DNA from: Thermococcus onnurineus NA1 | GTDB taxonomy: Archaea > Methanobacteriota_B > Thermococci > Thermococcales > Thermococcaceae | Length of the DNA stretch: 64,000 nucleotides | Direction: 5' to 3' | NCBI RefSeq assembly: GCF_000018365.1 | Contig: NC_011529.1 | Span: 682,001-746,000 of the forward strand | Part shown: in pieces, positions 55,525-58,668 of the stretch | Layout: every line of letters begins with the position of its first letter | Position numbering within the stretch: position 1 is the stretch's first letter | Position numbers and translations under genes: made by a program | The notes under the pieces: generated by a model | Seen by the model: the letters and a program-made list of their open reading frames with translations, nothing else | The model's database searches: none | What the model was told of the DNA's origin: nothing

Positions 55525-55583
55525 CGGGCGATGGCGTCCGCCCGGGCTTCGAGCCGAACCGCCCGTTTTGGGCTGATGACGCC
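55525..55583 (+). promoter_or_regulatory. Fluoride riboswitch (crcB motif)
   Basis: The sequence carries the consensus GGGCGATGG...CGCCC...GAACCGCCC...GGGCTGATGACGCC. P1 is CGGGCG 55525-55530 with CGCCCG 55539-55544. P3 is GCCC 55561-55564 with GGGC 55570-55573. The pseudoknot is GGCGTC 55533-55538 with GACGCC 55578-55583, as in the fluoride aptamer. An extra GGCT-TCG-AGCC hairpin (55545-55555) is inserted between P1 and the AAC linker. A GTTTTTAACC TATA element at about 55497-55506 precedes it by the right distance. The genuine fluoride channel gene crcB lies 2.3 kb downstream in the same direction, which supports the call. Confidence 0.88.
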
Positions 55584-55611
55584 TGTTCTCTGCCAGATAT
55601 AGCAGGAGGCG
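55580..55611 (+). promoter_or_regulatory. Anti-ribosome-binding-site hairpin (riboswitch expression platform)
   Basis: CGCCT (55580-55584), the 3' strand of the aptamer pseudoknot, can instead pair with AGGCG (55607-55611), with an inner stem CTGC (55590-55593)/GCAG (55602-55605). This hairpin would hide the GGAGG site at 55605-55609 before ATG 55617. Fluoride-bound pseudoknot and hairpin exclude each other, predicting translation only with fluoride. The pairing is seen in the sequence; the switching is inference. Confidence 0.6.
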
Positions 55612-55616
55612 GTAGA

Positions 55617-56474
55617 ATGGGCTCGAAGCTGAGTGAGATTGGCAGGTTTATTAACGCTGATGCGCTCATCAGCTACGTTGAGGAGAGGCGCCACGAGGAC
55701 GGCGGCTACTGCTTCGTGAGCGTTTTGGACGAGACCAACATTAACGACACGTACTACGCGGTAAAGATTTACAACCTGCTCGGGCTCGAAATTCCCGAGA
55801 GGGAGAAGACCGTGGAGTTCCTTTACACTTCCGCCCAGATGCAGACCGCGGTGGTGGCCGTTGCAATGGCCATCGAGGCACTGTCATTACTGGGGGCGAG
55901 AGATCTGGCAAGGGAAAAGCTGGACCTGCTCTTCTCCAAATACAACCCGCTAGAAGGGAAGTTCGCCGTTGGCCTCGGCGGAAGTGAGGAGTTCGGAACG
56001 GCTACTCCCCTGGAGGCAACCTACTGGGCCACGAGGGCGCTGGCGGCCGTGGGTTACCGTATGGACGGCGAGACCAGGGAAAGGATACGCAAGTTTGTGA
56101 TGGGGTTCCGCAAGGGAGACGGCTTCGGGGTGAAGGGGGCCACCACGACCATGACCTACCAGGCCCTCTTCACCCTCAAGGGCCTTGGCTATGCCGTCCC
56201 AGACACCACCCACTTCTACAGATGCGAGGTCTACGGCGGCTTTACCGAGGTGCCCTACTCGCTGCCCCCCTATCTAGAACCGACGTTCTATGCCATAAGA
56301 GGTCTCAGTCTGCTCGGCAAGAGGGCGCGCTACATAAGAGACCACATCAGGTTCATCAGAGCACTGCAGAACCCCAACGGAGGCTTCAGGCGCTCGCTGG
56401 AGATGGGCATATCGAACTTCCAGAACACGTACAGAGCCGTGAAAGCCCTCGACGAACTCCTGAAGTGGTACTGA
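55617..56474 (+). CDS. Prenyltransferase/terpenoid-cyclase-repeat protein, first gene behind the fluoride riboswitch
   Basis: 285 aa of alpha/alpha-toroid repeats like those of prenyltransferase beta subunits and squalene cyclases: RFINADALISYVEERRHEDG, LDETNINDTYYAVKIYNLLG, TATPLEATYWATRALAAVGY, FVMGFRKGDGFGVKGATTTM, FIRALQNPNGGFRRSLEMG. The Gly-Gly-aromatic and NDTYYAV repeat turns are kept. The DxDD cyclase motif is absent and a clear Asp-x-Cys-His zinc set is not seen, so enzymatic activity is uncertain. GGAGG precedes the ATG. It overlaps the next gene as TGATG. Confidence 0.8.
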   Translation: MGSKLSEIGRFINADALISYVEERRHEDGGYCFVSVLDETNINDTYYAVKIYNLLGLEIPEREKTVEFLYTSAQMQTAVVAVAMAIEALSLLGARDLAREKLDLLFSKYNPLEGKFAVGLGGSEEFGTATPLEATYWATRALAAVGYRMDGETRERIRKFVMGFRKGDGFGVKGATTTMTYQALFTLKGLGYAVPDTTHFYRCEVYGGFTEVPYSLPPYLEPTFYAIRGLSLLGKRARYIRDHIRFIRALQNPNGGFRRSLEMGISNFQNTYRAVKALDELLKWY

Positions 56475-57166
56475 TGGATATCGTGGGGATATATCTCAGG
56501 GAGGCTATGAAGGAGGGCTGCCCAGTCTGCAGGATACTCGGGGAGTACGAGGAGTCTGAAATCAATACAATCCTCTACGAGCACGTGAACGACCCCACTG
56601 TTAGGGTTAAGTTCAAGGAGAGCCTTGGTCTCTGCACCTACCACGCCTGGAAAACCCTCAAAACGGCCTACTCGAACCCACTGCTTGGCCCGCTGGGAGT
56701 GGCAATAATCTACGAGCACATGCTTTCAACTTATATCAAAATCCTCGAAAGCTGGGAGAAAGTCAAGGAAGGCGAGTGCTTCCTGTGCCTTCTCGTGGAA
56801 GAAAAGGAAAAGGACACGGTGGAGGCTATCACGGAGAAGATTGAGGAGCTCCTTCCCGTTTATGAGTCATCGGAGGCAATCCTCTGCAAAAGGCACCACG
56901 AGATGATAGACTCAATCCTCAGGAAGAAAAATCCCCAGAGCGCGGAGAGGCTCAGAAAAGTCCAGCTGGAGAAGCTGAAGAAGCTCAGGGAAAGGATGAA
57001 CTCTTTCATAAACAAGTTCGACTATAAGGCACTCGAAAGGCCCACAAGAGAAGAGGTTTCATCCCTCCCAATGACTATAGAGGCACTTAAAGGGCTCGAA
57101 AACGGAGCTACCCTAAGGAAGAAGGAACGAAAAAAGCGGACAAGGGGAGTTTTGCTATGGAGATAG
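56474..57166 (+). CDS. DUF6062-like four-motif Cys/His protein in the fluoride-riboswitch operon
   Basis: 230 aa. Two similar halves each give a CxxC and a Cys-x-x-His pair: GCPVCRILGEYE with LCTYHAW, and ECFLCLLVEE with LCKRHHE. They probably bind two Zn ions or Fe-S clusters. The C-terminus is basic (LRKKERKKRTRG). The pattern fits the DUF6062 family (assignment from memory). It is translationally coupled to the genes before and after it. Confidence 0.7.
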   Translation: MDIVGIYLREAMKEGCPVCRILGEYEESEINTILYEHVNDPTVRVKFKESLGLCTYHAWKTLKTAYSNPLLGPLGVAIIYEHMLSTYIKILESWEKVKEGECFLCLLVEEKEKDTVEAITEKIEELLPVYESSEAILCKRHHEMIDSILRKKNPQSAERLRKVQLEKLKKLRERMNSFINKFDYKALERPTREEVSSLPMTIEALKGLENGATLRKKERKKRTRGVLLWR

Positions 57167-57456
57167 AAGTAAGCCCCGAGGAGCTGGCTGAGATACGGAA
57201 GAACCAACGAGAGATAGAGAGACGCTTCAGAGACCTAGAAGGGCTTGAGAGAACCCTAAAAGCCCTCAAGTTGCGGTTCCTCTTGGAGCAGAGGGCCAGG
57301 CTGGAGAAGAGGCTCAGCGAGATGAGGCAGAACTATCGCGAGATGCTCGAGTTCGAAGATAAGGCAAAGAGGGATAAGGAGTTTTTGATGGCATTTAGGA
57401 AGGAACTCAGCGATGAGAACAAAAACCTTAGAAAGGAGCTAGGGGAAGAGAGATGA
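57157..57456 (+). CDS. Coiled-coil protein in the fluoride-riboswitch operon
   Basis: 99 aa, almost wholly charged helix (ELAEIRKNQREIERRFRDLE, FLLEQRARLEKRLSEMRQNY, KELSDENKNLRKELGEE). It overlaps the previous gene by 10 nt and the next by 4 nt. No family is recognised; probably a structural or oligomerising partner of its neighbours. Confidence 0.7.
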   Translation: MEIEVSPEELAEIRKNQREIERRFRDLEGLERTLKALKLRFLLEQRARLEKRLSEMRQNYREMLEFEDKAKRDKEFLMAFRKELSDENKNLRKELGEER

Positions 57457-57878
57457 AAATAACCGTTAAGCCGCGGAGGGGCTGGCGGAGGGTTACCTTC
57501 AGGGTTCCAGATGAGACCCTCGAAAGGATAGAGGAACTGTGCGAGCGTTACGGCTTCAGGTTGGATGAGGCTCTGAGGATAATACTCCTCCATGACTACG
57601 TGGATGATGGAGTCGATGTCGACGAGAAAGCCTTTGAAAAGCTAGAGAAGGGGATAGATGCTCTTGAAAAGGAGCTGTATAAGCTTGAAGGGAAGTGGTC
57701 GTCCCTGAAGTTCCGCTCCTATTATATAGCACTCGACAACCAGAACCTCGGAATCCAGCTCTCCGGAATGATGGCGGAGAACAAGAGACTGAGAAAGGTA
57801 CTCGGGAAGGAGGAGAGAGACTTCTCGGAAGTTAAGGAGCTGATTCACTACTACATGGCCTTCGGGGACAAGGATTAA
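57453..57878 (+). CDS. Ribbon-helix-helix-like protein with coiled-coil tail
   Basis: 141 aa. The N-terminus WRRVTFRVPDETLERIEELC and RYGFRLDEALRIILLHDYV looks like a ribbon-helix-helix DNA-binding unit (strand, helix, helix), followed by a coiled coil to the end. It could be a regulator of the cluster (inference). It overlaps the preceding gene by ATGA. Confidence 0.65.
   Translation: MKITVKPRRGWRRVTFRVPDETLERIEELCERYGFRLDEALRIILLHDYVDDGVDVDEKAFEKLEKGIDALEKELYKLEGKWSSLKFRSYYIALDNQNLGIQLSGMMAENKRLRKVLGKEERDFSEVKELIHYYMAFGDKD

Positions 57879-57911: not shown

Positions 57912-58668
<757 letters not shown>

Follow-up and report, generated by a model that had tools for sequence, protein, structure and literature searches.

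Thermococcus onnurineus NA1 carries a fluoride riboswitch upstream of a gene for a prenyltransferase-like protein, and the locus raises the question of how the aptamer governs expression of the gene behind it. An earlier note on this DNA placed the switch in a hairpin of 32 bases (CGCCTGTTCTCTGCCAGATATAGCAGGAGGCG), in which CGCCT pairs with AGGCG of the ribosome-binding site (RBS) around an inner stem CTGC/GCAG. The 64,000-nucleotide stretch analysed here is referred to as the window, and all coordinates are counted from its first letter (Table 1).

The riboswitch, its neighbours and its sites in the family

The window contains a genuine fluoride riboswitch: the Rfam covariance model RF01734 was covered whole (1–64), and its score exceeded the gathering score of 34. 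P1, P3 and the pseudoknot between the loop and the 3' strand are all present. The aptamer ends 24 bases before the start codon of the 285-aa gene, which is the head of a tightly spaced same-strand run reaching crcB. CrcB is a fluoride exporter. The second gene of the run encodes a DUF6062 protein (56474–57166), and two small genes (57157–57456 and 57453–57878) precede crcB. Elsewhere in the window, a CRISPR array with 24 matches to the repeat family RF01319 (46608–48178) and an SscA RNA (RF00063, 19461–19559, minus strand, 85.1 bits) were found.

Table 1. Coordinates of the leader elements and associated genes in the window.
Feature	Positions	Strand	Basis
Fluoride riboswitch aptamer, RF01734	55518–55592	+	cmscan, 50.7 bits
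P1 hairpin, loop with pseudoknot strand GGCGT (55533–55537)	55526–55543	+	Rfam alignment, coordinates
Inserted hairpin GGCT-TCG-AGCC; 55546–55555 is the 5' strand of long-range helix H1	55545–55555	+	Insertion in Rfam alignment
ACCGCC, P3 5' side and lead-in; possible partner of GGCGGT (helix H2)	55558–55563	+	H2 pairing across sites
P3 hairpin GCCC...GGGC	55561–55573	+	Rfam alignment
3' pseudoknot strand ACGCC, overlapping CGCCT	55579–55583	+	440 of 440 pseudoknot cells paired, 88 sites
Hairpin CGCCT/AGGCG with inner CTGC/GCAG	55580–55611	+	Outer stem 85 of 88 sites, inner stem 1 of 88
Ribosome-binding site GGAGGCGGT; GGCGGT (55608–55613) is the 3' strand of H2	55605–55613	+	GGAGGCGGTAGA in 58 of 88 sites
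Regulated gene, 285 aa, prenyltransferase alpha-alpha toroid domain	55617–56474	+	PF00432, 50.7 bits
Codons 2–5, GGCTCGAAGC, 3' strand of H1	55620–55629	+	GGC 75 of 75, TCG 75 of 75, AAG 69 and GAG 6 of 75
crcB, fluoride exporter, fifth gene of the run	57912–58283	+	PF02537 and TIGR00494, above cut-off

Matches to RF01734 were found in 88 of the 94 genomes of the family (Thermococcus/Pyrococcus). With 102 further places retrieved, 103 sites including the window were parsed, the gene that follows being of the 285-aa type in 88 (type 1) and coding for a NuoH-like hydrogenase membrane subunit in the other 15 (type 2). The pseudoknot is paired in all type-1 sites, its last pair varying between T-A, T-G and C-G. 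A crcB-like gene was present in the fetched downstream stretch of 66 type-1 sites. One clade (L106, L109, L111, L114, L116, and L118–L120) has no crcB-like gene within 3.5 kb after the riboswitch, so that its target there appears to be the prenyltransferase-like gene.

Pairing of the ribosome-binding site and the first codons

The complementarity described in the earlier note is real: CGCCT (55580–55584) can pair with AGGCG (55607–55611), and since the former overlaps the 3' pseudoknot strand, masking of the RBS and a closed aptamer exclude each other, as the note had stated. The outer stem is fully paired in nearly all type-1 sites (85/88). The inner stem, CTGC (55590–55593) with GCAG (55602–55605), exists in the window and in no other type-1 site. 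Across the 88 sites, CGCC is invariant, changes fall almost only on the RBS side, and no two-sided change was found; covariation is missing because the 5' strand never varies. The conservation of this stem says little about pairing, since CGCC is fixed by the pseudoknot and AGG by the Shine-Dalgarno function. The commonest RBS form of the genome is GGAGGTG (145 places before ATG; 18 in the backward-read control), and GGAGGCG occurs at 26 places before ATG (control 16). CGCCT could also pair with GGAGGTG, one G.U included.

The constrained partner of the start region, judged by sequence conservation, lies outside this hairpin, in the pairing of the insert with codons 2–5. The hairpin GGCT-TCG-AGCC, which had been noted as unusual for the compact aptamer, indeed falls in an 11-base insertion relative to the Rfam consensus; among archaea it is not unusual, as members from methanogens, Thermoplasmata and Altiarchaeales also carry a hairpin there (read by eye). 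Within it, GCTTCGAGCC matches the reverse complement of GGCTCGAAGC at every base. Of 63,880 window positions, 2 begin a perfect 10-base inverted repeat with roughly this spacing. This helix, H1, forms all 10 pairs in 75 of the 88 type-1 sites; the variants among these (A to G or C to T in the insert, AAG to GAG in the codons) keep G.U pairs.

The conservation extends to the choice of codon. The 75 insert-bearing sites use GGC and TCG without exception at codons 2 and 3, and AAG or, six times, GAG at codon 4, against gene-wide use for the same residues of 38% (GGC), 18% (TCG) and 63% (AAG). The codon entropy of codons 2–4 is zero, the lowest of 161 conserved-residue columns (next 0.19, median 1.47). 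Conservation of nucleotides 4–13 is 0.992, compared with 0.957 for the best 10-nt stretch beyond nucleotide 14 and a median of 0.745 over all stretches. Codons were changed in 7 of the 13 type-1 sites without a canonical insert and in none of the 75 with one (Fisher p 2.7e-7, a value that ignores the kinship of the sites). On a protein tree of 87 of the 88 type-1 rows, built without the residues of codons 2–5 and without the truncated L054 (103 aa), the insert state required nine changes and the codon state five, and every codon change fell within an insert loss. The independent-pairs test on the tree, with too few pairs, was not significant (two to three same, none opposite, p 0.25–0.5). No two-sided insert/codon changes were detected among type-1 sites, and the sequence case for H1 in type 1 is carried by conservation, not covariation.

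The codons are kept despite an altered insert in the other 6 of the 13 sites: in L108 and L112 a different hairpin takes its place, and in L057, L095, L099 and L113 the insert is imperfect. In addition, L133 (genome G012) has lost most of the aptamer, retaining a stretch resembling the 3' pseudoknot strand (GATGGCGCCTATTCTAC) together with the RBS and codons 2–5 of the prenyltransferase-like gene. Codon retention in L108, L112 and L133 may reflect recent losses. The adjacent helix H2 (ACCGCC/GGCGGT), parsed in 86 of the 88 type-1 sites, is fully paired in 67 of them, and L080 shows a two-sided change (ACTGCC/GGCAGT).

A reading without any RNA switch would have codons 2–4 frozen for the protein N-terminus or for a DNA-binding regulator recognizing GGCT-N3-AGCC half-sites, the insert being a second operator. 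The insert and the codon stretch are each near-palindromic (GGCT-N3-AGC), and the six sites that retain the codons without a matching insert agree with such a reading. Nevertheless, synonymous positions are frozen while a change from K to E is tolerated, the insert changes GCTTCGGGCC and GCTTCGAGTC destroy a half-site yet keep the RNA pairs, and the TCG spacer does not vary, as an RNA helix would require. The type-2 sites described below, moreover, have the same geometry in unrelated sequence. We give this reading a slim chance.

Folding energies were modelled for the window. At 85 °C, where the values are extrapolated nearest-neighbour energies calculated without ligand, pseudoknot or ribosome, the aptamer helices alone reached −0.6 kcal/mol and −0.0 kcal/mol with the CGCCT/AGGCG hairpin, so that the hairpin adds nothing in the model. 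The combination of H1 and H2 reached −7.6 kcal/mol, and that of H1, P3 and the CGCCT/AGGCG hairpin −7.5 kcal/mol. Mean pair probabilities at 85 °C were 0.89 for H1, 0.72 for H2 and 0.14 for the hairpin, and H1 is predicted to dominate at this temperature. At 37 °C the corresponding values were 0.71, 0.43 and 0.29; the minimum free energy structure is a different fold, with which H1 competes, and H1 with the hairpin (its inner stem included) scored −46.3 kcal/mol and H1 with H2 −40.0 kcal/mol. Since H1 combined with the hairpin scores like H1 with H2, CGCCT/AGGCG may act together with H1. Codons 2–5 paired with the 5' part of the aptamer at a probability of at least 0.5 in 76 of the 88 type-1 sites, and in 2 of 88 after synonymous shuffling.

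These data bear on the hairpin as the whole switch, according to which CGCCT, freed when fluoride is missing, pairs with AGGCG and hides the Shine-Dalgarno sequence, the insert and the codons playing no part. The widely paired outer stem, its use of the pseudoknot strand, which excludes the bound aptamer, and the minority status of GGAGGCG in the genome (26 against 145 places) speak for this reading. Against it stand the invariant 5' strand with no two-sided change, the inner stem confined to one site, the energies at 85 °C and the codon conservation, which it leaves unexplained. The hairpin is thus present but uninformative and weak; we rejected it as the entire switch and regard the model in which it acts alone as unlikely.

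Proposed mechanism and a second type of site

The riboswitch probably acts on translation initiation, with strands of its own aptamer clamping the start codon when fluoride is missing. In this state the inserted hairpin, which lies between P1 and P3, would open and form H1 with codons 2–5. Neighbouring pairs would mask the RBS, and these could be either H2, at the expense of the 5' strand of P3, or CGCCT/AGGCG, at the expense of the pseudoknot strand. With helices on either side, the start codon would lie in a loop, out of reach of the ribosome. Fluoride would stabilize P1, P3 and the pseudoknot, the insert would refold on itself, and the start region would be freed. H1 is expected to form in cells as the OFF state and to be opened by fluoride; the direction of the switch, OFF without fluoride, follows from the exporter role of CrcB.

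H1 and the aptamer have no strands in common, whereas H2 and the type-2 helices do share aptamer strands. H1 would nevertheless be incompatible with a tight aptamer, because it crosses the pseudoknot (55533–55537 with 55579–55583) and would pull the ends of the insert apart. The exclusion would be strict if H2 forms, since the 5' strand of P3 is then taken. In a locked-aptamer model with P1, the insert hairpin and P3 forced and the pseudoknot occupied, mean codon pairing fell from 0.92 to 0.29 (74 insert-bearing type-1 sites).

The type-2 sites (L031, L033, L050, L083, L107, L117, L121–L127, L129, and L130) represent a second fluoride riboswitch in 15 genomes of the family. The genes following the L031 site resemble hydrogenase membrane subunits (by eye). 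These 15 include most of the genomes whose type-1 insert has degenerated. Type-2 leaders are without the insert, and the stretch from the RBS to the start reads GACGCC-NNTGAA-CCCGGAA. Its first six bases can pair with GGCGTC of the pseudoknot loop in all 15 sites, and CCCGGAA is fully paired with TTCCGGG on the 5' side of P1 in 14; L129 pairs ACTCGGG with CCCGGGT, two pairs being changed two-sidedly and a third to G.U. The type-2 codon table comprised 14 of the 15 sites, L125 being left out. Codons 2–5 paired with the 5' part of the aptamer at a probability of at least 0.5 in 13 of 15 sites, compared with 0 of 15 after synonymous shuffling. The locked aptamer lowered the mean from 0.57 to 0.31 (15 sites), and only 3 of 15 fell by more than 0.3. 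On this pattern of complementarity, type 2 seems to be a second, separate clamp design, acting on another start codon through other aptamer strands. Clamp and sensor would be mutually exclusive here because the aptamer strands are shared outright. On balance, we favour the view that the expression platform of Thermococcaceae is split between the aptamer insert and the first codons, that the same two-helix start-codon geometry arose once more, from other aptamer strands and ahead of a hydrogenase operon, and that almost the entire family keeps the synonymous sites of these codons fixed.

The earlier note's prediction of translational control, not termination, was supported: aptamer strands can base-pair with the start region, and between the pseudoknot and the start codon none of the 103 leaders has five consecutive T. 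Transcriptional control, in which the riboswitch would steer leader termination or processing and the long-range pairing would be secondary, could account for the 86-nt crcB RNA detected upstream of TK0513 (crcB being TK0514) in growing cells only, which might be a shortened product (PMC4247193, in the part of the paper available). Besides the missing T-run, the placement of the complement exactly around the start codon in both site types speaks against such control, and the T. kodakarensis riboswitch is termed presumably translational in the available part of PMC8241225; its chance is small. The same separate 86-nt RNA (PMC4247193, available part) could point to a real pairing with another role, in mRNA stability or through a leader fragment in trans. 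The pairing is, against this, local and constant in position, and ATG-N-GGCTCGAAGC has only two other places in the genome, neither directly preceded by ATG; trans action on other genes was rejected on this count, and another role as a whole is highly improbable.

The start-codon clamp is a concrete and cheaply testable mechanism for an archaeal fluoride riboswitch, and it accounts for the frozen synonymous sites in the regulated gene. If it is true, the coding sequence of that gene is itself part of the switch, and reporter fusions dropping codons 2–5 would remove part of it. The clamp further points to a way for a switch to operate near 85 °C, with one helix of 10–11 bp replacing a short anti-Shine-Dalgarno hairpin.

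Other archaea and known systems

Beyond the family, 67 loci (L263–L329) from methanogen classes and a few other archaea were tested; 27 were unscored, the aptamer being unparsed or a start with a Shine-Dalgarno-like stretch missing. The 40 parsed sites showed no excess of clamp pairing (1 of 40 at p ≤ 0.05), and a general archaeal rule of start-codon clamping was rejected as unsupported. Many of these 40 sites nevertheless have a hairpin at the position of the insert. L139 and L141, from two genomes of another family of the class, match RF01734 with 37 and 28.5 bits, the second being under the cut-off, and the L139 riboswitch precedes a gene reading like crcB. With their different inserts, GGCATATGCC and GGCACGTGCC, both can form a helix of 10 bases, G.U included, with GCATGTGCTG at the start; by partner swapping this sequence pairing is suggestive only (p 0.054 and 0.036). 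A wide pattern scan (at least 120 stretches) returned many false sites, including several actinobacterial matches that read like coding sequence, and a 56-site test drawn from it (5 at p ≤ 0.05 against 2.8 expected) was set aside because of them; of its sites only L139 and L141, as matches to RF01734, are considered here. The insert thus occurs widely among archaea; employing it to clamp the start codon seems to be particular to this group.

In the add adenine riboswitch, the ligand opens a fold that hides the Shine-Dalgarno sequence and the start codon, and the masking strand adjoins the aptamer. In the leader described here, by contrast, the proposed masking strand is part of the aptamer itself and is directed against coding sequence.

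The riboswitch class is known; the expression platform is apparently undescribed within the searchable literature. A search of open-access literature, whose reach did not include Speed 2018, returned no title or abstract start on a fluoride aptamer pairing with codons. The T. kodakarensis fluoride riboswitch is described in the accessible part of PMC8241225 as the sole natural riboswitch of archaea to have been established experimentally. It belongs to the same leader family and is presumably translational as well (Speed 2018, via excerpts of citing papers); the parts of the literature consulted, with Speed 2018 outside them, did not describe how it works. In Pseudomonas syringae and Burkholderia pseudomallei, translational fluoride riboswitches likewise act without intrinsic termination, and their description in the available portion of PMC13273304 mentions no insert-codon pairing. 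As in the crcB motif (RF01734; Weinberg 2010, PMC2864571, available part), which was already listed with formate hydrogenlyase genes, a complete aptamer, including P1, P3 and the pseudoknot, precedes crcB-linked and formate-hydrogenlyase-type genes. In the expression platform, in place of a terminator that overlaps the aptamer, strands internal to the aptamer here would pair with the RBS and the first codons.
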